Source of the DNA: Picocystis sp. L7
Taxonomy: Eukaryota; Chlorophyta; Picocystophyceae; Picocystales; Picocystaceae
Direction: 5' to 3'
Length of the DNA stretch: 64,000 nucleotides
Assembly: GCA_020975725.1 (NCBI GenBank)
Contig: QXJR01000007.1
Span: 248,001-312,000, forward strand
The position numbers and the translations under genes are program-made. Below, in pieces: positions 1 to 58,002 of the stretch (position 1 is the stretch's first letter; the number at the start of each line of letters is the position of its first letter). The notes below the pieces were generated by a model that worked only from the letters and a program-made list of their open reading frames with translations, was not told the DNA's origin and made no database searches.

Positions 1-181
1 CCGGTTTGCCCATCGAAATGCATGGACCACCGGAGCTTCCAAGGTACAATTTTGCGTACAAGTACCCCTATGTATGCACATCTTCCGCACCGAATTTCAC
101 AGCCTCGGTCGTTCTCGTTGGGGCGTAATGGAGGGTCCCTTTCACCCGTGTGTCGATTGGGGTCCCTTCAAGGGGGGAGGA

Positions 182-970
182 CCCAGTACTCCGCCACACC
201 CCCCCTGGAGGTGTTTCTCCGTGGTCTGCTCGTGGGGCGGAAGATTCTCGCGGACGTGTGGGCATGGGAATGGAAGCTGAAACTCCGGAGAAGGGCCCTG
301 CGTTGCCCGATTGGAGCTCCGTGCCTCGATACTGCCCGTAGACCCCCTTTGAAAACAGGTCCATTGGAAGGGATGGTCTGAAAACACGATTTTTTTTTAC
401 AAGTCGCTCCCGGTCCCCATGAAGGGTCTCAAGAGGCCACCTTCCGTCGGCGATCCAGGAGGCGCAAGACAACTCCTTGCCCTCTCCTTTCACGTCCCTA
501 TCCTTCCCTTTCTCTTCGGCCTGGAGACGGAGCCTTGGATCCCAAGCGGCGAAGATGGCCTGTTTCGAGGGGTCACCAACAGCCGGATGGGAATGGGTGC
601 CACAGGACACCCACCCAACTTCGACCTACGAAAATCGATGACAGTGTAGAACACATAGCGGTCGATCTGCACCCGGAGTTTCGAATCCATCCCATCCCCC
701 GCTGGGCAATGGCGAACGAAGGCGTCCGCCCAGCCGTGGCTGTGCAAAAGGGTCCCCATTGGGGCCAACCAATGGTAGGGACCAGTTCCCCCTCGTTGTG
801 TGCCACTGAGGCCGATACAGCCCCAGTGAATCCCATGAACAGAAAGAGAATTTTACAAGGAATCCGTTGGTGTGCAATGCAAGTCCTGAAACGATCGGAA
901 TGAGGGTCAAACGGGGAGGAGAAGTCAGGGGTTCGGGCAGGAACCCTGAAAGAAGTGGCGGACTACTGGG
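182..970. repeat. Family 1 long direct repeat, copy 1
   Basis: 789-bp segment starting CCCAGTACTCCGCCAC (182-197) and ending GTGGCGGACTACTGGG (955-970). The two ends are inverted repeats with one mismatch in 16. Open frames inside are short, lie on both strands and resemble no known protein, so I read it as non-coding terminal sequence. Confidence 0.75.
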
Positions 971-1198
971 TCAGCCCTGTTTCAAAATCGTGCCATGGAC
1001 AGTGTATGCACCTACGGAGAGCCACACGAAGTCCATCACTTTCACTGTTGGAGACAAGACTCCTGTAAAAAATTGGAAGGAAAGGGAACCATGGTGAATG
1101 TAGGAGGAACGATGGAAAAAAACAGCGATTTTGGCCTGGATTTTCAAATTTTCAGGTGGGTTGGGCTACTGTCCTTCAAGCCCACGTGTACTCCACTT

Positions 1199-2305
1199 TC
1201 AATAGTGAATCATTTCTCCTTTCCTCTTCCGTACTTGATCCATCCTCCGGGGCATGCTATCCATCAGTCGCCTTGGGATAGTTCCTCTTCCAAGCTCAGC
1301 CCATGCTTGGTACATGCACCTTCTCAACTCCCCAAGGGTGGTGGGCTGAGCATGCAAAACCTTCATGTCAAGCAAGGCCCAAAGATTCTCAATGGGACTG
1401 AGGTCTGGGCTCATAGAGGGCCAGTCAAACATCACATCCACACCCATGTCTTGTGTCCATTCTCTCAAGGTGGTGAGGGTGGCCTTGGCTGTGTGTGCCC
1501 CGTCACCGTCTTGTTGAAAGGTCCATGACCCCCCCTTGAACAACCTATTGCCTTCAGCCAATAAGCGAGGGAGGACATCATAGGAGTACTCCGTTGAAGA
1601 CACCCCCTTGCATGCTTGCTTCCCACGCTTGGTTTCATAAGCATTCTCCAAGTCCGTGGTCCCGGTGACCTCCACAAGTTCGGTACACCCATGCTTGGTT
1701 AACCCAGCGTACACCTTGATGCAAGGTGGGTTCTTTTGGGCAAACAACTTGGGAGTAACGCCACTTGGTGCCATGGTTCTCCTCCCCTTGGAGTGAGGAA
1801 TGCGTGACAAGCGCAAAGTGTGTGCATCCGTGAACATGACCTGTCCAAAGTCAAAGTTCATATGGTCTTGGGCAAACTGAACTCGCGCGATTTTGTGCTT
1901 GAGGTTGAGCTTGCGCTCCACCTTTTGCACCTTGAACCCCACTCCCAAATCTCGAAAGACACGTTGAAGGGTCCTCAGGGGAATGACTTTCTTGTACTTG
2001 CTGTGCCATGCACGTTGGACCTCTTCCGTGTACGTGAGCTGCCCCTTCTCGGCCCGTTGTGTAAGAAAACGCACAAGCCATTTTTCATAGCCATGTGCGT
2101 ACTCCAAGCTTCGATGGTTGCCATGACCATGGGCCTTGGAAGGCACCTCGCGGAGGAACGACTCCACCTCTGCCACGGAACGTTTCATAACCAACGCCGT
2201 AGTGGTGATGTCACCACCACATGTTTGAAAGGCATACCGAACCACTTGTTGGGTCACCTTGGAGATTTCCCTCGCTTGCTTGTCCATCGTTCCCCTCGTT
2301 TGCAT
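1199..2305 (-). CDS. DDE transposase, Tc1/mariner/IS630 type (copy 1)
   Basis: 368-aa protein, intact. The N-terminal ~130 residues look like two helix-turn-helix segments (a basic patch near 40-43 and a second ending at LRTLQRVFRDLG, 110-121). The catalytic domain shows FTDAH (D160), FQQDGDGAH (D266) and SPDLSPIENLW (E306), the Tc1/mariner DDE signature. The gap between the second D and the E is 39 residues instead of the usual 34. It should cut and join element ends in the nucleus. The start ATG at 2305 is preceded about 75 bp upstream by GAGTTAAC (2380-2387), a motif also upstream of several host genes. It is 49% or so identical by eye to the transposase at 55375-56616. Confidence 0.9.
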   Translation of the reverse strand: MQTRGTMDKQAREISKVTQQVVRYAFQTCGGDITTTALVMKRSVAEVESFLREVPSKAHGHGNHRSLEYAHGYEKWLVRFLTQRAEKGQLTYTEEVQRAWHSKYKKVIPLRTLQRVFRDLGVGFKVQKVERKLNLKHKIARVQFAQDHMNFDFGQVMFTDAHTLRLSRIPHSKGRRTMAPSGVTPKLFAQKNPPCIKVYAGLTKHGCTELVEVTGTTDLENAYETKRGKQACKGVSSTEYSYDVLPRLLAEGNRLFKGGSWTFQQDGDGAHTAKATLTTLREWTQDMGVDVMFDWPSMSPDLSPIENLWALLDMKVLHAQPTTLGELRRCMYQAWAELGRGTIPRRLMDSMPRRMDQVRKRKGEMIHY

Positions 2306-2379
2306 GGGGAGCGTGCTTGCCTTGTGGAGGGCTGATGGCTCTCCTCACGAGCCCGTCTCCTAGGGCATGTGGTAAAGCC

Positions 2380-2387
2380 GAGTTAAC
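2380..2387. promoter_or_regulatory. GTTAAC-type motif upstream of transposase
   Basis: GAGTTAAC, 75 bp upstream of the transposase ATG. It recurs at +2466 and +4932 with the other units. Similar sites precede CDK7, transaldolase and the mitochondrial carrier. A promoter role is inferred. Confidence 0.3.
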
Positions 2388-2647
2388 CCTGTACCATTTG
2401 TTTACACAAGGGGCGAATCTCCCCTTGACCCCAGGTCTCTCTATGGGTCACGGGCTGTACCACCAGCCGGTTTGCCCATCGAAATGCATGGACCACCGGA
2501 GCTTCCAAGGTACAATTTTGCGTACAAGTACCCCTATGTATGCACATCTTCCGCACCGAATTTCACAGCCTCGGTCGTTCTCGTTGGGGCGTAATGGAGG
2601 GTCCCTTTCACCCGTGTGTCGATTGGGGTCCCTTCAAGGGGGGAGGA

Positions 2648-3436
2648 CCCAGTACTCCGCCACACCCCCCCTGGAGGTGTTTCTCCGTGGTCTGCTCGTG
2701 GGGCGGAAGATTCTCGCGGACGTGTGGGCATGGGAATGGAAGCTGAAACTCCGGAGAAGGGCCCTGCGTTGCCCGATTGGAGCTCCGTGCCTCGATACTG
2801 CCCGTAGACCCCCTTTGAAAACAGGTCCATTGGAAGGGATGGTCTGAAAACACGATTTTTTTTTACAAGTCGCTCCCGGTCCCCATGAAGGGTCTCAAGA
2901 GGCCACCTTCCGTCGGCGATCCAGGAGGCGCAAGACAACTCCTTGCCCTCTCCTTTCACGTCCCTATCCTTCCCTTTCTCTTCGGCCTGGAGACGGAGCC
3001 TTGGATCCCAAGCGGCGAAGATGGCCTGTTTCGAGGGGTCACCAACAGCCGGATGGGAATGGGTGCCACAGGACACCCACCCAACTTCGACCTACGAAAA
3101 TCGATGACAGTGTAGAACACATAGCGGTCGATCTGCACCCGGAGTTTCGAATCCATCCCATCCCCCGCTGGGCAATGGCGAACGAAGGCGTCCGCCCAGC
3201 CGTGGCTGTGCAAAAGGGTCCCCATTGGGGCCAACCAATGGTAGGGACCAGTTCCCCCTCGTTGTGTGCCACTGAGGCCGATACAGCCCCAGTGAATCCC
3301 ATGAACAGAAAGAGAATTTTACAAGGAATCCGTTGGTGTGCAATGCAAGTCCTGAAACGATCGGAATGAGGGTCAAACGGGGAGGAGAAGTCAGGGGTTC
3401 GGGCAGGAACCCTGAAAGAAGTGGCGGACTACTGGG
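2648..3436. repeat. Family 1 long direct repeat, copy 2
   Basis: Second copy of the 789-bp inverted-repeat-bounded segment, offset 2466 bp from the first and apparently identical. Confidence 0.75.
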
Positions 3437-3664
3437 TCAGCCCTGTTTCAAAATCGTGCCATGGACAGTGTATGCACCTACGGAGAGCCACACGAAGTCC
3501 ATCACTTTCACTGTTGGAGACAAGACTCCTGTAAAAAATTGGAAGGAAAGGGAACCATGGTGAATGTAGGAGGAACGATGGAAAAAAACAGCGATTTTGG
3601 CCTGGATTTTCAAATTTTCAGGTGGGTTGGGCTACTGTCCTTCAAGCCCACGTGTACTCCACTT

Positions 3665-4771
3665 TCAATAGTGAATCATTTCTCCTTTCCTCTTCCGTAC
3701 TTGATCCATCCTCCGGGGCATGCTATCCATCAGTCGCCTTGGGATAGTTCCTCTTCCAAGCTCAGCCCATGCTTGGTACATGCACCTTCTCAACTCCCCA
3801 AGGGTGGTGGGCTGAGCATGCAAAACCTTCATGTCAAGCAAGGCCCAAAGATTCTCAATGGGACTGAGGTCTGGGCTCATAGAGGGCCAGTCAAACATCA
3901 CATCCACACCCATGTCTTGTGTCCATTCTCTCAAGGTGGTGAGGGTGGCCTTGGCTGTGTGTGCCCCGTCACCGTCTTGTTGAAAGGTCCATGACCCCCC
4001 CTTGAACAACCTATTGCCTTCAGCCAATAAGCGAGGGAGGACATCATAGGAGTACTCCGTTGAAGACACCCCCTTGCATGCTTGCTTCCCACGCTTGGTT
4101 TCATAAGCATTCTCCAAGTCCGTGGTCCCGGTGACCTCCACAAGTTCGGTACACCCATGCTTGGTTAACCCAGCGTACACCTTGATGCAAGGTGGGTTCT
4201 TTTGGGCAAACAACTTGGGAGTAACGCCACTTGGTGCCATGGTTCTCCTCCCCTTGGAGTGAGGAATGCGTGACAAGCGCAAAGTGTGTGCATCCGTGAA
4301 CATGACCTGTCCAAAGTCAAAGTTCATATGGTCTTGGGCAAACTGAACTCGCGCGATTTTGTGCTTGAGGTTGAGCTTGCGCTCCACCTTTTGCACCTTG
4401 AACCCCACTCCCAAATCTCGAAAGACACGTTGAAGGGTCCTCAGGGGAATGACTTTCTTGTACTTGCTGTGCCATGCACGTTGGACCTCTTCCGTGTACG
4501 TGAGCTGCCCCTTCTCGGCCCGTTGTGTAAGAAAACGCACAAGCCATTTTTCATAGCCATGTGCGTACTCCAAGCTTCGATGGTTGCCATGACCATGGGC
4601 CTTGGAAGGCACCTCGCGGAGGAACGACTCCACCTCTGCCACGGAACGTTTCATAACCAACGCCGTAGTGGTGATGTCACCACCACATGTTTGAAAGGCA
4701 TACCGAACCACTTGTTGGGTCACCTTGGAGATTTCCCTCGCTTGCTTGTCCATCGTTCCCCTCGTTTGCAT
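3665..4771 (-). CDS. DDE transposase, Tc1/mariner/IS630 type (copy 2)
   Basis: Protein identical to the copy at 1199-2305 (368 aa, DD39E). The lack of any amino-acid change indicates very recent duplication or an assembly repeat. Confidence 0.9.
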   Translation of the reverse strand: MQTRGTMDKQAREISKVTQQVVRYAFQTCGGDITTTALVMKRSVAEVESFLREVPSKAHGHGNHRSLEYAHGYEKWLVRFLTQRAEKGQLTYTEEVQRAWHSKYKKVIPLRTLQRVFRDLGVGFKVQKVERKLNLKHKIARVQFAQDHMNFDFGQVMFTDAHTLRLSRIPHSKGRRTMAPSGVTPKLFAQKNPPCIKVYAGLTKHGCTELVEVTGTTDLENAYETKRGKQACKGVSSTEYSYDVLPRLLAEGNRLFKGGSWTFQQDGDGAHTAKATLTTLREWTQDMGVDVMFDWPSMSPDLSPIENLWALLDMKVLHAQPTTLGELRRCMYQAWAELGRGTIPRRLMDSMPRRMDQVRKRKGEMIHY

Positions 4772-5113
4772 GGGGAGCGTGCTTGCCTTGTGGAGGGCTG
4801 ATGGCTCTCCTCACGAGCCCGTCTCCTAGGGCATGTGGTAAAGCCGAGTTAACCCTGTACCATTTGTTTACACAAGGGGCGAATCTCCCCTTGACCCCAG
4901 GTCTCTCTATGGGTCACGGGCTGTACCACCAGCCGGTTTGCCCATCGAAATGCATGGACCACCGGAGCTTCCAAGGTACAATTTTGCGTACAAGTACCCC
5001 TATGTATGCACATCTTCCGCACCGAATTTCACAGCCTCGGTCGTTCTCGTTGGGGCGTAATGGAGGGTCCCTTTCACCCGTGTGTCGATTGGGGTCCCTT
5101 CAAGGGGGGAGGA

Positions 5114-5902
5114 CCCAGTACTCCGCCACACCCCCCCTGGAGGTGTTTCTCCGTGGTCTGCTCGTGGGGCGGAAGATTCTCGCGGACGTGTGGGCATGGG
5201 AATGGAAGCTGAAACTCCGGAGAAGGGCCCTGCGTTGCCCGATTGGAGCTCCGTGCCTCGATACTGCCCGTAGACCCCCTTTGAAAACAGGTCCATTGGA
5301 AGGGATGGTCTGAAAACACGATTTTTTTTTACAAGTCGCTCCCGGTCCCCATGAAGGGTCTCAAGAGGCCACCTTCCGTCGGCGATCCAGGAGGCGCAAG
5401 ACAACTCCTTGCCCTCTCCTTTCACGTCCCTATCCTTCCCTTTCTCTTCGGCCTGGAGACGGAGCCTTGGATCCCAAGCGGCGAAGATGGCCTGTTTCGA
5501 GGGGTCACCAACAGCCGGATGGGAATGGGTGCCACAGGACACCCACCCAACTTCGACCTACGAAAATCGATGACAGTGTAGAACACATAGCGGTCGATCT
5601 GCACCCGGAGTTTCGAATCCATCCCATCCCCCGCTGGGCAATGGCGAACGAAGGCGTCCGCCCAGCCGTGGCTGTGCAAAAGGGTCCCCATTGGGGCCAA
5701 CCAATGGTAGGGACCAGTTCCCCCTCGTTGTGTGCCACTGAGGCCGATACAGCCCCAGTGAATCCCATGAACAGAAAGAGAATTTTACAAGGAATCCGTT
5801 GGTGTGCAATGCAAGTCCTGAAACGATCGGAATGAGGGTCAAACGGGGAGGAGAAGTCAGGGGTTCGGGCAGGAACCCTGAAAGAAGTGGCGGACTACTG
5901 GG
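5114..5902. repeat. Family 1 long direct repeat, copy 3
   Basis: Third copy of the 789-bp inverted-repeat-bounded segment. Confidence 0.75.
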
Positions 5903-6130
5903 TCAGCCCTGTTTCAAAATCGTGCCATGGACAGTGTATGCACCTACGGAGAGCCACACGAAGTCCATCACTTTCACTGTTGGAGACAAGACTCCTGTAA
6001 AAAATTGGAAGGAAAGGGAACCATGGTGAATGTAGGAGGAACGATGGAAAAAAACAGCGATTTTGGCCTGGATTTTCAAATTTTCAGGTGGGTTGGGCTA
6101 CTGTCCTTCAAGCCCACGTGTACTCCACTT

Positions 6131-7237
6131 TCAATAGTGAATCATTTCTCCTTTCCTCTTCCGTACTTGATCCATCCTCCGGGGCATGCTATCCATCAGT
6201 CGCCTTGGGATAGTTCCTCTTCCAAGCTCAGCCCATGCTTGGTACATGCACCTTCTCAACTCCCCAAGGGTGGTGGGCTGAGCATGCAAAACCTTCATGT
6301 CAAGCAAGGCCCAAAGATTCTCAATGGGACTGAGGTCTGGGCTCATAGAGGGCCAGTCAAACATCACATCCACACCCATGTCTTGTGTCCATTCTCTCAA
6401 GGTGGTGAGGGTGGCCTTGGCTGTGTGTGCCCCGTCACCGTCTTGTTGAAAGGTCCATGACCCCCCCTTGAACAACCTATTGCCTTCAGCCAATAAGCGA
6501 GGGAGGACATCATAGGAGTACTCCGTTGAAGACACCCCCTTGCATGCTTGCTTCCCACGCTTGGTTTCATAAGCATTCTCCAAGTCCGTGGTCCCGGTGA
6601 CCTCCACAAGTTCGGTACACCCATGCTTGGTTAACCCAGCGTACACCTTGATGCAAGGTGGGTTCTTTTGGGCAAACAACTTGGGAGTAACGCCACTTGG
6701 TGCCATGGTTCTCCTCCCCTTGGAGTGAGGAATGCGTGACAAGCGCAAAGTGTGTGCATCCGTGAACATGACCTGTCCAAAGTCAAAGTTCATATGGTCT
6801 TGGGCAAACTGAACTCGCGCGATTTTGTGCTTGAGGTTGAGCTTGCGCTCCACCTTTTGCACCTTGAACCCCACTCCCAAATCTCGAAAGACACGTTGAA
6901 GGGTCCTCAGGGGAATGACTTTCTTGTACTTGCTGTGCCATGCACGTTGGACCTCTTCCGTGTACGTGAGCTGCCCCTTCTCGGCCCGTTGTGTAAGAAA
7001 ACGCACAAGCCATTTTTCATAGCCATGTGCGTACTCCAAGCTTCGATGGTTGCCATGACCATGGGCCTTGGAAGGCACCTCGCGGAGGAACGACTCCACC
7101 TCTGCCACGGAACGTTTCATAACCAACGCCGTAGTGGTGATGTCACCACCACATGTTTGAAAGGCATACCGAACCACTTGTTGGGTCACCTTGGAGATTT
7201 CCCTCGCTTGCTTGTCCATCGTTCCCCTCGTTTGCAT
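6131..7237 (-). CDS. DDE transposase, Tc1/mariner/IS630 type (copy 3)
   Basis: Protein identical to the copies at 1199-2305 and 3665-4771. Last complete transposase of the array. Confidence 0.9.
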   Translation of the reverse strand: MQTRGTMDKQAREISKVTQQVVRYAFQTCGGDITTTALVMKRSVAEVESFLREVPSKAHGHGNHRSLEYAHGYEKWLVRFLTQRAEKGQLTYTEEVQRAWHSKYKKVIPLRTLQRVFRDLGVGFKVQKVERKLNLKHKIARVQFAQDHMNFDFGQVMFTDAHTLRLSRIPHSKGRRTMAPSGVTPKLFAQKNPPCIKVYAGLTKHGCTELVEVTGTTDLENAYETKRGKQACKGVSSTEYSYDVLPRLLAEGNRLFKGGSWTFQQDGDGAHTAKATLTTLREWTQDMGVDVMFDWPSMSPDLSPIENLWALLDMKVLHAQPTTLGELRRCMYQAWAELGRGTIPRRLMDSMPRRMDQVRKRKGEMIHY

Positions 7238-7579
7238 GGGGAGCGTGCTTGCCTTGTGGAGGGCTGATGGCTCTCCTCACGAGCCCGTCTCCTAGGGCAT
7301 GTGGTAAAGCCGAGTTAACCCTGTACCATTTGTTTACACAAGGGGCGAATCTCCCCTTGACCCCAGGTCTCTCTATGGGTCACGGGCTGTACCACCAGCC
7401 GGTTTGCCCATCGAAATGCATGGACCACCGGAGCTTCCAAGGTACAATTTTGCGTACAAGTACCCCTATGTATGCACATCTTCCGCACCGAATTTCACAG
7501 CCTCGGTCGTTCTCGTTGGGGCGTAATGGAGGGTCCCTTTCACCCGTGTGTCGATTGGGGTCCCTTCAAGGGGGGAGGA

Positions 7580-8368
7580 CCCAGTACTCCGCCACACCCC
7601 CCCTGGAGGTGTTTCTCCGTGGTCTGCTCGTGGGGCGGAAGATTCTCGCGGACGTGTGGGCATGGGAATGGAAGCTGAAACTCCGGAGAAGGGCCCTGCG
7701 TTGCCCGATTGGAGCTCCGTGCCTCGATACTGCCCGTAGACCCCCTTTGAAAACAGGTCCATTGGAAGGGATGGTCTGAAAACACGATTTTTTTTTACAA
7801 GTCGCTCCCGGTCCCCATGAAGGGTCTCAAGAGGCCACCTTCCGTCGGCGATCCAGGAGGCGCAAGACAACTCCTTGCCCTCTCCTTTCACGTCCCTATC
7901 CTTCCCTTTCTCTTCGGCCTGGAGACGGAGCCTTGGATCCCAAGCGGCGAAGATGGCCTGTTTCGAGGGGTCACCAACAGCCGGATGGGAATGGGTGCCA
8001 CAGGACACCCACCCAACTTCGACCTACGAAAATCGATGACAGTGTAGAACACATAGCGGTCGATCTGCACCCGGAGTTTCGAATCCATCCCATCCCCCGC
8101 TGGGCAATGGCGAACGAAGGCGTCCGCCCAGCCGTGGCTGTGCAAAAGGGTCCCCATTGGGGCCAACCAATGGTAGGGACCAGTTCCCCCTCGTTGTGTG
8201 CCACTGAGGCCGATACAGCCCCAGTGAATCCCATGAACAGAAAGAGAATTTTACAAGGAATCCGTTGGTGTGCAATGCAAGTCCTGAAACGATCGGAATG
8301 AGGGTCAAACGGGGAGGAGAAGTCAGGGGTTCGGGCAGGAACCCTGAAAGAAGTGGCGGACTACTGGG
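7580..8368. repeat. Family 1 long direct repeat, terminal copy 4
   Basis: Fourth copy of the 789-bp segment; it is not followed by a transposase. Similarity to the other copies stops right after the inverted repeat GTGGCGGACTACTGGG at 8368, where a G run and unrelated DNA begin. This copy therefore marks the true right end of the element array. Confidence 0.75.
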
Positions 8369-28062: not shown

Positions 28063-28413
28063 CGCCTCTCCCTGTCAATCCCTGTCAATCGCTCTCAAGC
28101 TTCCTCTCAGTCCCTGTCAAGCTCCCTCTCCCTGCCAATCCCTCTCAATCTCCCTCTCCCTCTCAGTCCCTGCCAATCCCTGTCAACCTCCCTCTCCCTC
28201 CCAGTCCCTGTCGATCCCTGTCAATCTCCCTCTCCCTCTCAGTCCCTGTCGATCCCTCTCGATCTCCCTCTCCCTCTCAGTCCCTCTCAATCCCTGTCAA
28301 TCTCCCTCTCATTCCCTGTCGATCCCTCTCGATCTCCCTCTCCCTCTCAATCGCTCTGAACCTCTCTCCACCCCTCCCACTCCCACTGGCACTTCCTCTC
28401 ATTCTCACTCTCA
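28063..28413. repeat. Pyrimidine-rich minisatellite
   Basis: About 350 bp of degenerate tandem repeats built from CCCTGTCAATC, CCCTCTCAATC and CTCCCTCTC variants; nearly all pyrimidine on the + strand with isolated GTC, GAT or AAT. It begins just upstream of the REXO4 start codon and lies between two divergent genes. Confidence 0.85.
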
Positions 28414-52029: not shown

Positions 52030-53091
52030 ATGGCGCTCTCCACCTCGGCTCTCCGCGCACCTGTTCTCAGCCGCTCCGTCAGGAGCGTGCGTGGCACACG
52101 CTCCACCGCCGGACGCGGCAATGTGGCCGCTCAGGGTACGATGCACGACGAGCACGGAGACGAACGTCGCGAGCGAAGGCGTTCCGAGGGGATGGAAGGG
52201 AACAACGCACTGCGCAGGAACCTGGACGGAAGTAAACGATCTGAACGGGTTTGTCTGTGCCAGATTCGTCTGTCGAAGCGGGATAGGGATGGTAGAGGAG
52301 CCCTCGACGGTGTCGATTGGAGTAGAGGTCGGCGGAGAGGAGGACGAACGGCTGGTGGGATCGATCCGTCTTTGCCATGCCAGAGCCAACGCTGACACGG
52401 GTGTGGTCTTGCATGCGACGCGTAGCTGCCAAGCAATCTTGGATGCCCGGTGTGAAGCACCCGGAATACTTGGACGGAACTCTCCCAGGGTAAGTTGCGG
52501 TTGTCGCATCCTTCGTGAACGAGCTGGTTCAGTGAGTCTGACACGAAATGTGACCATGTGTTGTTTTGCAGTGATTACGGTTTTGATCCCCTTCGCCTGG
52601 CTGAGGACCCCAAGCTCCTGCAGAGGTACACCGAAGCCGAGCTTCAAAACGGACGTTGGGCAATGCTTGGTGTGGTTGGTATGATCGCTGTGGAGGTGCT
52701 AGGACAAGGCAATTGGATTGATGCAGCTGTGAAGTCTCCCCAGACTTACATGGGCAAGGAAATCCCCCTGTCATTGCCCGTGCTTTGCTTCGTTGAATTC
52801 CTTGCTTTTGCCTTTGTGGAATCCAAGCGTAACGAGGAGACAGATCCGGTCAAGCGATGCTATCCCGGAGGTGCTTTTGATCCACTAGGCTTCTCCAACG
52901 ACCCTGCCAAGTTCGAGCAGTACAAGATCAAGGAGGTTAAGAACGGGCGTCTTGCCATGCTTGCTTTCCTTGGATTCCTCTCTCAGCAGGTTGGCACCGG
53001 CACCGGTCCTGTCCAGAACTTGCTTGACCACATTGGGGACCCATGGCATGTGAATGTGTCCCTCAACAAGGTGGCCTTGCCGTACCTGTGA
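52030..53091 (+). CDS. Light-harvesting chlorophyll a/b-binding protein, LHCI (Lhca) type
   Basis: 229 aa from three exons: 52030-52135, 52426-52489 and 52572-53091, with GT-AG introns of 290 and 82 nt. The spliced reading is continuous: a Ser/Arg-rich transit peptide (MALSTSALRAPVLSRSVRSVRG), then [27 protein letters not shown]. Helix B is EAELQNGRWAMLGVVG, helix C FVEFLAFAFVESKR, and helix A EVKNGRLAMLAFLGFLSQQ, with the Glu/Arg pairs and Asn chlorophyll ligands. The end GPVQNLLDHIGDPWHVNV closely resembles Lhca4-type proteins of green plants. It is a thylakoid membrane antenna of photosystem I. Helix-B ligand position holds Asn-Gly-Arg where many Lhca have His. Confidence 0.93.
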
Positions 53092-53852: not shown

Positions 53853-53980
53853 GTCCTCCTCTGCTGTTCGATCCGGGATGTCTTCCTCGGGTCATCCCCC
53901 GACTCCATCGATCAACCGAACCAGGGCTCCTCCTTTCAACCGATCCACGATCCCCATCAAAGACACCGGACCACCCCGTT

Positions 53981-54764
53981 CACCCCACCGCCACTTCGGG
54001 GAAGCGTGAGTCCTCTGGCTTTTTCTTCACATCAGGCCTGTTCCCCCTTCGTTTTTGTGGTGTTTCTGGGTGATTCGACGAGGAGAATCCGAATCTGAGC
54101 TTGGTTGGTCCTGGATCGTTCGTCTTTCCGGTGAACTCGGCGCGGCTGGCTCGGGGGTGTTCCAAAATTCACCCTTTTTGGGGCGTTTTGGCCAGGCGGT
54201 TGAACATGCGCTTCATGGCACCAGGAGCATCGACTCTCGATGTGCTTTTTCTCATGAAGGTGTCCTATCTCTCCGTCTTTCCTCTCCTAAAGTTTGGCGG
54301 TCCGGTTCCTCGTGGATGCCTGGCTGCCGTTGGGAAGGTGCGAAGAAGCGGTGCCGTTTGGGCTTCCCACCACCTGCCGGTGGGTATTTCCTCTATAAAT
54401 CGCGTCAGGCAGAATTTGGGCAATTTGAGAGTACCATTCAAAAGAACGCGCCGAAACCTATCCAACGAGCCATCGTTTGTTGGATTTCAACCGATATTCG
54501 AAGAGATACGCGCATCGAAAGAAAGGAGAACCCGCCAGGGGAAACGAGCCAGGATCCAGGACCCAAAGACCCTGGGACGTACGCGGGCCTCCCGGCGCTT
54601 GCACGGGCCGAACCAGGCCGGGATCCATCGATCAAAACCGTGCAAAACAGAGTGCTCTACAACTTCGATTGGAACGGCAACGTCCGGAAAGGCCCTCCCG
54701 AGGCTCCACGGATCCCGCAGCGACACCCCCTCTCTCCCTATGAAGAAAAAGTGGCGGTGGGGTG
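53981..54764. repeat. Family 2 direct repeat, left copy
   Basis: 784 bp, ends CACCCCACCGCCACTT / AAGTGGCGGTGGGGTG. It contains CTCTATAAATCG (54391-54402), a TATA-box-like site on the plus strand, pointing into the element interior but opposite to the transposase. A 264-codon frame crosses it but looks non-coding. Confidence 0.75.
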
Positions 54765-55374
54765 GGTAAGGGCTTGCTGCCGAGGCCACCGCGGACGTAT
54801 GGCGCCTTGGATGGCTACGAAACTCTGGGAGACCTATGAAGTGAGCTAGAGGAATACTGTACCGGATGGGTAGCTCCTGAAACGCTGTGGTGGCTGAGAA
54901 AGGACGACCACAGTTTGGTGCTGAAAACAGGCCGAAACTCAGTGATTCAGGCCTGTCCTCCAGGGAGAGGCTTTTAGGCATACCGTACGAACCACGACGT
55001 TTTTGGCCACAAAAACTGGAGGGTAGTTGAATCACATGTCAGGAGTAGTGCTCACGGAGTTTGGTTACGATCCGCTTTCGCAAGGATCCCCGAGAGCCTG
55101 GGGAGGGAAGCCTGGGGGTGTGTCTTGAGAGGTCCCATGAGTCCCATCAACGGGGCCGAGCCCCAGGCTGGCCTTCTCAAGCCGTTTCAGCTGCATGCAA
55201 GCGTTCACAGGGGCTCCATTAGTTGATTTGAGCTACGTGGAGCAGCTACAAGTCCGTAGGAGCCCAACACACGACTCCATGGGGGTGACTGGTTTTGAGC
55301 GAGAAACGGAAGGAAGAACAGACAGAAACTTTCAAGTCAAATTACAAGACAAGCCATTTTCTCATGGGAGGCAA

Positions 55375-56616
55375 TCAATACTTGGTGAACTCCCCACGGT
55401 TGAGGATGACCTCTTCAAGCCTCTTGGGCATGGTTTTGAGGAGCTTTGATCCAAGCCCCTCTTTGGAGAGCTCCTTCCATGCACGAAAGGTGCAGGTTTT
55501 GAGCTCTTCCAAGGTGGTGGGTCCCATGGCTTCCACCCTCCTGTCCAAGCAAGACCACACGTTTTCAATGGGACTAAGATCAGGGCTGAGAGAGGGCCAA
55601 TCCAACATGAGATCCACGTGAGCTTGAGTGGAGAGCTCCACCAACTTGAGAATGGTGGCCTTCGATCGATGGGCCCCATCCCCATCCTGTTGAAAGGTCC
55701 AAGGGGCCTTCTTGTACAACCTGGTGCCCTCCTTCATCAGCCAAGGGAGGACTTTTTCTGCGTACTCCTGCTGTCCTACACCCTTGGACACCTTCCCTTG
55801 TCCATCCTTGAAGTCACTGGGCTGCCCGGTGGTCCCCGTGACTGTCATTAGGCCTGTGAGTCCACGAGCACACACCCCACCATACACTTTGATTCGTGGG
55901 GGGGCCTTGTTGTACTCCACGAGGGGTGTGGTACCAGGAGGGACTAGGGTTCGTTTGGAGCCTTTGTGCTTGGTGGTTCCCAGGTAAATTTGGTGGGCAT
56001 CCGTGAAAAGAACCCGCTCAAAACCATCCCCCAAGTGCCGTTCCGCAAACTTCACTCTATTGGCCTTGTGTGAGGCTTGCAACTTCATCACCTTTTTTTG
56101 GACCTTGGTCTTCACCCCCAAATCCTTCAACAGCCGTTGCAAGGTCCTCAACGGTACTCTCCGTCCGTACCGTGCTTCCCACTCGTTCATGACGTCCCTT
56201 GTCCCCATGGCCTGGCCTTCAAGTGCACGAGACTTGAGCAAGTTGCACAGCCACTTGTCATGACCACGGGCATAAGAGAGGGAACGGCGTTTCGAAGAGG
56301 GGGAAGCTTTGGGCTTACGATCCTTCACCCAAGACTTCACTGTCACCCAACTCCGCTTCATAACCTTGGACGTGGCGGAGAGATTCCCACTCAGCACCTT
56401 GTACGCCGCTTTGGTGGCCTGGATGGCCGCTTCCTCCATGAGGCCTGGTGATGGCTTTTTTGTGCGCTTCTTCCCCATCACGAAGCGCTTTGCCTTGAAC
56501 TCCGGTCGGTGCTGTATTTGGTCTTTCCTCTTTCGATTCCACCCCATAATCCTCCCTTGCTCACCCTGTGTGCTGGGGGAGGGGAGTTGACAGCACCCCC
56601 CCTCCAAACCTGCCAT
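55375..56616 (-). CDS. DDE transposase, Tc1/mariner/IS630 type (family 2)
   Basis: 413 aa, intact. The N-terminal ~55 residues are extra and basic relative to the family 1 protein. Helix-turn-helix segments follow (AIQATKAAYKVLSGNLSATSKVMKRS; LRTLQRLLKDLGV). Catalytic triad: FTDAH (D206), FQQDGDGAH (D311), SPDLSPIENVW (E351), again 39 residues between second D and E. About half the residues match the family 1 transposase, including DLGV, FTDAH, VTGTT and QQDGDGAH blocks. No intron. The start may instead be the ATG of MGWNRKRK (56547). Confidence 0.9.
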   Translation of the reverse strand: MAGLEGGCCQLPSPSTQGEQGRIMGWNRKRKDQIQHRPEFKAKRFVMGKKRTKKPSPGLMEEAAIQATKAAYKVLSGNLSATSKVMKRSWVTVKSWVKDRKPKASPSSKRRSLSYARGHDKWLCNLLKSRALEGQAMGTRDVMNEWEARYGRRVPLRTLQRLLKDLGVKTKVQKKVMKLQASHKANRVKFAERHLGDGFERVLFTDAHQIYLGTTKHKGSKRTLVPPGTTPLVEYNKAPPRIKVYGGVCARGLTGLMTVTGTTGQPSDFKDGQGKVSKGVGQQEYAEKVLPWLMKEGTRLYKKAPWTFQQDGDGAHRSKATILKLVELSTQAHVDLMLDWPSLSPDLSPIENVWSCLDRRVEAMGPTTLEELKTCTFRAWKELSKEGLGSKLLKTMPKRLEEVILNRGEFTKY

Positions 56617-56800
56617 ACCTACCAGCGGTGACTCTCGGGGGCACTGCCACTCGCTGAGTGACGGCAGGACAACGAGATTTGGCAGGTGAATTGTACATCG
56701 TCCAGATCAACTACGGTTTGAATTTCAGGACCAGAAACCTCGTACTTCGGGCGCCACGCCCCCCCCAATCCAGCAGATCCCGAAACACCCCCCGCGTACC

Positions 56801-57584
56801 CACCCCACCGCCACTTCGGGGAAGCGTGAGTCCTCTGGCTTTTTCTTCACATCAGGCCTGTTCCCCCTTCGTTTTTGTGGTGTTTCTGGGTGATTCGACG
56901 AGGAGAATCCGAATCTGAGCTTGGTTGGTCCTGGATCGTTCGTCTTTCCGGTGAACTCGGCGCGGCTGGCTCGGGGGTGTTCCAAAATTCACCCTTTTTG
57001 GGGCGTTTTGGCCAGGCGGTTGAACATGCGCTTCATGGCACCAGGAGCATCGACTCTCGATGTGCTTTTTCTCATGAAGGTGTCCTATCTCTCCGTCTTT
57101 CCTCTCCTAAAGTTTGGCGGTCCGGTTCCTCGTGGATGCCTGGCTGCCGTTGGGAAGGTGCGAAGAAGCGGTGCCGTTTGGGCTTCCCACCACCTGCCGG
57201 TGGGTATTTCCTCTATAAATCGCGTCAGGCAGAATTTGGGCAATTTGAGAGTACCATTCAAAAGAACGCGCCGAAACCTATCCAACGAGCCATCGTTTGT
57301 TGGATTTCAACCGATATTCGAAGAGATACGCGCATCGAAAGAAAGGAGAACCCGCCAGGGGAAACGAGCCAGGATCCAGGACCCAAAGACCCTGGGACGT
57401 ACGCGGGCCTCCCGGCGCTTGCACGGGCCGAACCAGGCCGGGATCCATCGATCAAAACCGTGCAAAACAGAGTGCTCTACAACTTCGATTGGAACGGCAA
57501 CGTCCGGAAAGGCCCTCCCGAGGCTCCACGGATCCCGCAGCGACACCCCCTCTCTCCCTATGAAGAAAAAGTGGCGGTGGGGTG
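56801..57584. repeat. Family 2 direct repeat, right copy
   Basis: Same 784 bp as the left copy, offset 2820 bp, apparently identical. TATA-like CTCTATAAATCG at about 57211-57222 here points toward the SDR gene. Confidence 0.75.
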
Positions 57585-58002
57585 GTTGGACGTGTCGGAA
57601 CCCGATCCACAAACCCCACGTCCATCGAACCTTGCTAAACCCTAAGCTTAACTACTCGACCGACCGACACGTGCAGACGAGCGTCGGTGCCGCGTCGCAA
57701 AGCAGGCCGCCGTCGCTTCGCGAGGATCGCTTGCAGTACATCAAGAAGGGAAGCTCTCTGGAAGGGCGTTGGATTGTTTGGGATCGAAGGAAACGAGCGA
57801 AAGAAAGTACGACGGGACCGCAGAGCCATCCCGTCCTCGCTCCTTCGTCTCGGACCAATTCGCCTAGGCGACAAACTCGACGATCGAAGACGAACCGTAA
57901 GGACGATTACGTGCACAGGAAACACTTCAAGAGAGACAATCAACCCGGATTTGTGCTTCTTACTTTCGAGGGTGGAGTCGCGAAGCGGGAGTGAACTGCG
58001 AA
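57585..58002 (+). promoter_or_regulatory. SDR upstream region with telo-box
   Basis: 418 bp between the transposon and the SDR start. AAACCCTAA (57637-57645), the plant telo-box, is followed at once by GCTTAACTACTCG. The insertion separates this region from the Nudix promoter. Confidence 0.35.

Follow-up and report, generated by a model that had tools for sequence, protein, structure and literature searches.

Long direct repeats with inverted tips around IS630/Tc1/mariner-type transposase genes: two element families in a green algal contig

Anatomy of the two elements

The window, meaning the whole stretch of 64,000 bases that was analysed (55.5% G+C), holds two elements built on the same plan. 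The first, element 1 (53981-57584), consists of an internal region, INT1, enclosed by two direct copies of a long repeat, R1. The copies are identical across 784 bp, and one extra G matches beyond this length, which brings the raw exact match to 785 bp. The ends of each copy form a perfect 16-bp inverted repeat (CACCCCACCGCCACTT / AAGTGGCGGTGGGGTG), and INT1 contains a single intact transposase open reading frame on the minus strand. Both outer sides of the element read GTT. The sequence-only reading had described this locus as a cut-and-paste element with an LTR-resembling, composite-like layout, in which TIR-bounded 784-bp direct repeats enclose one intact Tc1/mariner-type transposase between two GTT triplets. 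The anatomy below agrees with that description throughout.

53978-53980: GTT on the left, which with the right-hand GTT forms the presumed 3-bp target-site duplication of element 1 (two 3-mers agree by chance with probability 0.017)
53981-54764, plus strand: R1 left copy, 784-bp long terminal direct repeat with CA...TG tips and a perfect 16-bp TIR
54765-56800: INT1, 2036 bp between the two R1 copies, starting with GGT and ending with ACC
55375-56616, minus strand: transposase T1, 413 aa, HTH_Tnp_Tc3_2 and DDE_3 domains, D206 D311 E351
56801-57584, plus strand: R1 right copy, exactly equal to the left copy
57585-57587: GTT on the right, presumed target-site duplication of element 1

Element 1 is the one insertion with both outer flanks in view. 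Because the case is single and two 3-mers picked elsewhere in the window are the same with a probability of about 0.017, the GTT duplication is suggestive, not proof. Directly before the left GTT, within 53971-53980, the outer flank reads CCACCCC, which is like the element's own tip CACCCC; the likeness may be accidental, the DNA being rich in C, or may hint at targeting near ends. A Nudix gene (minus strand) lies on one side of the element and an SDR gene (plus strand) on the other. The gene content looks eukaryotic: the chlorophyll-binding protein encoded at 52558-53091 has as its best matches multi-domain 9vfj chains, followed by Lhca1-type chains (the best single-domain matches), which are green-lineage proteins. 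A red algal host had been considered and was set aside. Low-complexity tandem repeats of the TCCCTCTCAA type at 28069-28412 are apparently unconnected with either element, and an Rfam search of the window returned nothing at the gathering threshold.

The second family occupies positions 1-8366 and follows the same plan in the form of a tandem multimer, (R2-INT2)n-R2, with n at least 3. The left end of the array lies outside the window, and the unit count is thus a lower bound. From the left edge, the order is INT2 tail, R2, INT2, R2, INT2, R2, INT2 and R2, with an exact period of 2466 bp and a self-match free of mismatches over 5902 bp. The array stops at 8366, the right tip of R2 copy d, and the raw periodic match is 2 G longer, reaching 8368. 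R2 measures 785 bp, and its four copies in the array are identical, with inverted ends CAGTA[C/G]TCCGCCAC.

1-183: INT2, tail of the unit that leaves the window at the left edge
184-968, plus strand: R2 copy a, 785 bp, CA...TG tips, 14-bp TIR with one mismatch
969-2649: INT2 unit 1, 1681 bp, starting with GGT and ending with ACC
1199-2305, minus strand: transposase T2, 368 aa, 43% identical to T1, D160 D266 E306
2650-3434, plus strand: R2 copy b
3435-5115: INT2 unit 2, with a T2 copy at 3665-4771 (minus strand)
5116-5900, plus strand: R2 copy c
5901-7581: INT2 unit 3, with a T2 copy at 6131-7237 (minus strand)
7582-8366, plus strand: R2 copy d, last repeat of the multimer

Several features recur in both families. 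A scan of both strands of the 64-kb window finds the motif CAnnnnnCCGCCAC (pattern CA.{5}CCGCCAC) at 12 places, all of them R tips. Solo R copies are absent from the window outside the two elements. Both INT1 and INT2 start with GGT and end with ACC, and ACC directly precedes the CA tip at nine of nine inner junctions and at none of the three outer flanks. Since the array units are identical, these nine junctions amount to four independent ones (two from family 1 and two types from family 2). GGTA/TACC, the sequences that flank R1 on its inner side, had been considered as a TA duplication. This reading was dropped because family 2 shows GGTC/GACC, so that the common feature is the inverted GGT...ACC. 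With the CA...TG tips taken as ends, the repeats are 784 bp (R1) and 785 bp (R2) long; the raw repeat and inverted-repeat matches give 785 and 789 bp, respectively.

The transposases

Profile searches place both enzymes in one group. T1 passed the Pfam cut-offs for HTH_Tnp_Tc3_2 (34.6 bits, cut-off 31.5) and DDE_3 (29.3 bits, cut-off 28.6), whereas T2 stayed under both, with 28.0 bits for DDE_3 and 26.7 bits for HTH_Tnp_Tc3_2. The NCBIfam IS630 model matched T1 at E 1e-14 (54.8 bits) and T2 at E 1e-13 (51.2 bits), each below the equivalog cut-off of 100 bits. When T1 was compared by sequence with solved structures, Sleeping Beauty was the sole chain at E 0.01 or better (E 5e-17). By these matches, T1 is an IS630/Tc1/mariner-type transposase, and by enzyme both elements belong to IS630/Tc1/mariner. 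The AlphaFold model of T1 had a mean pLDDT of 38, too poor for use.

The T1-T2 alignment puts 39 residues between the last D and the E in both proteins. From the motifs and what is known of the superfamily, we take D206, D311 and E351 of T1 to be the catalytic residues. A narrow word search of the literature found no transposase labelled DD39E. Across 367 codons, the two genes differ at 146 second positions, compared with 164 and 226 at the other two, and the NG86 estimates are dN 0.60 and dS 3.5 (dS saturated). Since second positions differ least and dN lies well below the saturated dS, the genes evolved under constraint. As far as the sequence tells, both elements are autonomous.

Relatives of T1 and T2 were sought in viral, prokaryotic and plasmid collections, which by their descriptions do not include algal nuclear genomes. 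Viral contigs yielded 30 stretches with the alignment query and 3 and 2 with the single proteins, and prokaryote genomes yielded 58 stretches, none of which was confirmed as a relative. Codon patterns for DGDGAH were present at 46 loci in viral contigs and one in genomes, and the best tblastn E value of the 47 was 0.092, with no relative confirmed. The plasmid search, carried out with T1 only, confirmed none. Given this outcome in collections without algal nuclear genomes, the architecture described here rests on two loci in one window.

Shared plan and origin of the repeats

The ends of the repeats are alike in the two families. In a comparison of 19 bases at the inner ends, R1 shares 14 positions with the right R2 end, a level reached in the background at 2 of 102,764 positions against the R1 end and at 0 against the R2 end. 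Agreement with the left R2 end amounts to 13 of 19, which the background equals at 23 and 13 of 102,764 positions. The interiors gave a different picture when scored against copies shuffled in two-base blocks. R1 and R2 reached a local score of 18 (shuffles 14.6 +/- 1.9; 19 of 300 reach it) and a global score of -75.5 (shuffles -94.4 +/- 10.3; 10 of 300 reach it). Against reversed R2, 82 of 300 local and 25 of 300 global shuffles did as well. The transposase genes, used as a positive control, scored 164 against 16.9 +/- 2.3, with 0 of 60 shuffles as good. Judged by these scores, the interiors of R1 and R2 do not convincingly align; the slight excess of the global score may stem from a distant relationship or from base composition. 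The non-coding segments of INT1 and INT2 do not align with each other, as 266 and 158 of 300 shuffles reach their scores.

Apart from the transposase genes, the frames scanned in the two elements showed no recognised coding content. None of seven open reading frames situated wholly or partly in R1 or the remainder of INT1 scored above the Pfam cut-off (one sub-threshold match, DUF1569, E 0.25), nor did any of the 9 frames scanned out of 12 listed for R2 copy b and the first part of the INT2 that follows it. A His-Me finger endonuclease had no Pfam match in the R1/INT1 frames (5 + 2) or the nine R2-copy-b frames scanned. Among the frames scanned, there was also no reverse transcriptase/integrase polyprotein, the Tc1/IS630-type transposase being the only product recognised. 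Two open frames of R1, of 264 and 222 aa, were considered as part of a transposase and rejected: they have no Pfam match, and the translated comparison of R1 with R2 (best tblastx E 1.4) shows no meaningful similarity.

Repeats of this kind invite the view that element 1 is a fortuitous composite, formed when a 784-bp MITE was duplicated around a transposase gene whose own ends were lost, with no stable R-INT-R lineage behind it. The absence of recognised coding content in R, by Pfam in the frames scanned, is what such a history would leave. Yet family 2, with a transposase only 43% identical, shares with element 1 the plan, the end motif, the GGT...ACC internal ends and, to within 1 bp, the R length. 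Independent accidents are hardly the cause of so much in common, and we regard a chance composite as improbable.

The exact identity of the repeats points to a further alternative. Plain tandem duplication, or an assembly artefact, of R+INT would produce both R-INT-R and the 2466-bp array; identical repeats are also expected from assembly duplication, and the 5902-bp self-match without mismatch fits this origin as well. Against it, the duplicated stretch stops exactly at TIR tips, both at the left and right of element 1 and where the array ends within the window. Moreover, element 1 has GTT on either side. Repeated agreement of this kind is not expected from random breakpoints. Duplication or artefact therefore appears very unlikely.

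Both features are likely to be composite-like DNA transposons with an R-INT-R plan, an internal IS630/Tc1/mariner-type DDE transposase and R copies whose tips are inverted. In this plan, the ends of the direct repeat coincide to the base with the inverted-repeat tips, and GTT flanks element 1. A heritable composite-like architecture is the best reading because two families with diverged enzymes share the end motif, the plan and a near-equal R length, and because both monomer and multimer occur. The second family in the same window makes such an architecture likelier than a one-off accident.

Comparison with known systems and possible mechanism

A comparable design has been reported for KolobokP. 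According to Kojima and Bao (2022; PMC9587614), these elements are organised as LTDR-INT-LTDR, with a DDE transposase in INT and short TIRs on each LTDR. Solo repeats and multimers, (LTDR-INT)n-LTDR, occur in several genomes, the LTDRs are constrained in length and measure about 450 or 660 bp, duplications measure 3-5 bp, and in one family INT starts and ends with TATA. The same authors describe a Kolobok-superfamily transposase together with a His-Me finger nuclease, a distribution over seven animal phyla and a design unlike any other DNA transposon, and they tie the multimers to the homing endonuclease.

The elements described here resemble KolobokP in the TIR-bounded long direct repeats around an internal transposase, seen in both families (the left end of family 2 lying outside the window), and in the repeat-sharing multimer at 1-8366. 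They differ in carrying an IS630/Tc1/mariner-type enzyme, as judged by Pfam and NCBIfam profile matches, in having no endonuclease recognised in the frames scanned, in their repeat length (784/785 bp) and in a host with a green-type light-harvesting gene. Beyond the transposase, INT2 has only 230 and 344 bp to spare. Since the transposase superfamily is another one, no endonuclease was recognised and INT2 leaves so little room, the elements work like KolobokP yet stand outside that group. The interpretation offered by the sequence-only reading is supported in part. The LTR-resembling, composite-like layout with a cut-and-paste enzyme stands, and the second family makes a heritable plan more likely. 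A new element architecture in the absolute sense is not supported, because in KolobokP (PMC9587614) TIR-bounded direct repeats enclosing an internal transposase, along with solo repeats and multimers, are already on record.

Comparison with Tc1/mariner (IS630) elements gives likenesses in the HTH_Tnp_Tc3_2 and DDE_3 transposase, the sequence match to Sleeping Beauty and the short TIRs. For this group, PMC4054914 describes a TA target-site duplication directly outside the TIRs and, in moss Tc1-like elements, tips that begin with CAGT; R2 tips start in the same way, and R1 tips start with CACC. The departure from the Tc1/mariner norm that had been pointed out for element 1 is evident at its outer ends (GTT, GTT), and TA is absent from all three outer tips in view, the third being followed by a run of G. 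A repeat of about 785 bp, itself TIR-bounded, separates the transposase gene from each outer end, and the D-E spacing is 39, with E, in T1 and T2. Only the outermost tips form an inward-facing TIR pair around the transposase gene, with an extra TIR-bounded repeat on each side. Narrow word searches of open-licence PubMed Central papers found no element of the Tc1/mariner group that carries such repeats.

Bacterial composite transposons and IS26 translocatable units share the direct-repeat mobile ends, the internal segment and the repeatable R+INT unit. In composite transposons, the flanking IS encodes the transposase (as summarised in PMC9587614), whereas here its gene lies in the part between the repeats, and in the repeats themselves no coding content was recognised. 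LTR retrotransposons are similar in that their direct terminal repeats could recombine to yield solo repeats and arrays. The present elements differ from them in a DDE_3 transposase, with no reverse transcriptase recognised, and in repeats bounded by TIRs of 14-16 bp.

A mechanism for the R-INT-R plan may be outlined from these features. The inverted tips CAnnnnnCCGCCAC of the roughly 785-bp R are presumably recognition sites of the transposase. Pairing of the two outermost tips would move the whole R-INT-R, and insertion would probably duplicate 3 bp of target sequence. Homologous recombination between the direct repeats could then build multimers, either by unequal crossover or by entry of an R+INT circle into another R. 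It would also release R+INT circles, predict solo R copies and help to hold the R copies identical. The inner GGT/ACC may set the inner tips apart from the outer ones, either by blocking the release of a lone R or as a nick site on the circle.

Part of this scheme can also stand as an explanation of its own. If an R+INT circle had recombined homologously into an earlier solo R, the GTT duplication would be that of the solo R and not of the composite. Such a history accounts for a monomer and a multimer that share R copies while the outer duplications stay unaltered, and it is among the models set out in the KolobokP paper (PMC9587614), with a parallel in IS26 translocatable units. On the other hand, it requires a solo R, and the window contains none outside the two elements. 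We hold it to be possible, in a tentative sense; its confidence overlaps with that of the preferred reading, composite-like transposition of R-INT-R, because it can be one of the steps of the latter.

A more speculative variant, to which we assign little likelihood, takes a circle of one R and one INT as the mobile form and converts it to R-INT-R in a single step. The transposase would nick one strand at each tip of this R, the two nicks lying on opposite strands and at the conserved inner junction (TG^GGT). R would then be melted or resected to leave two R-long 3' tails, both tails would be joined to the target three bases apart, and host repair would copy R twice. If this were true, the two repeats would stay identical, and the TIR-bounded R, an R length kept without its sequence and the conserved GGT...ACC ends of INT would all be explained. 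Such an element would generate its terminal repeats by itself, in the manner of an LTR element, but as a DDE transposon and with no reverse transcription involved.

A KolobokP-like layout with a Tc1/mariner-type enzyme in a green alga suggests a separate origin of this design, and multimers without a recognised endonuclease suggest that the endonuclease is not needed for multimers. The elements are small, with 2.5 and 2.8 kb for repeat plus internal region and one recognised gene each, and would offer a simple test system. The question for such a system is how a composite is kept together by a cut-and-paste enzyme, though each repeat could leave alone.

Two smaller features of R1 concern its possible function. 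A further 11-bp inverted pair, CTTTTTCTTCA, lies at 54019-54029 and 54741-54751, with one arm extending into the right TIR at its inner edge, and is possibly a second, putative binding site; the same inverted-repeat search listed no such additional pair in R2. At 54394-54399, the plus strand of R1 reads TATAAA, oriented opposite to the transposase gene, a possible candidate promoter within the repeat.
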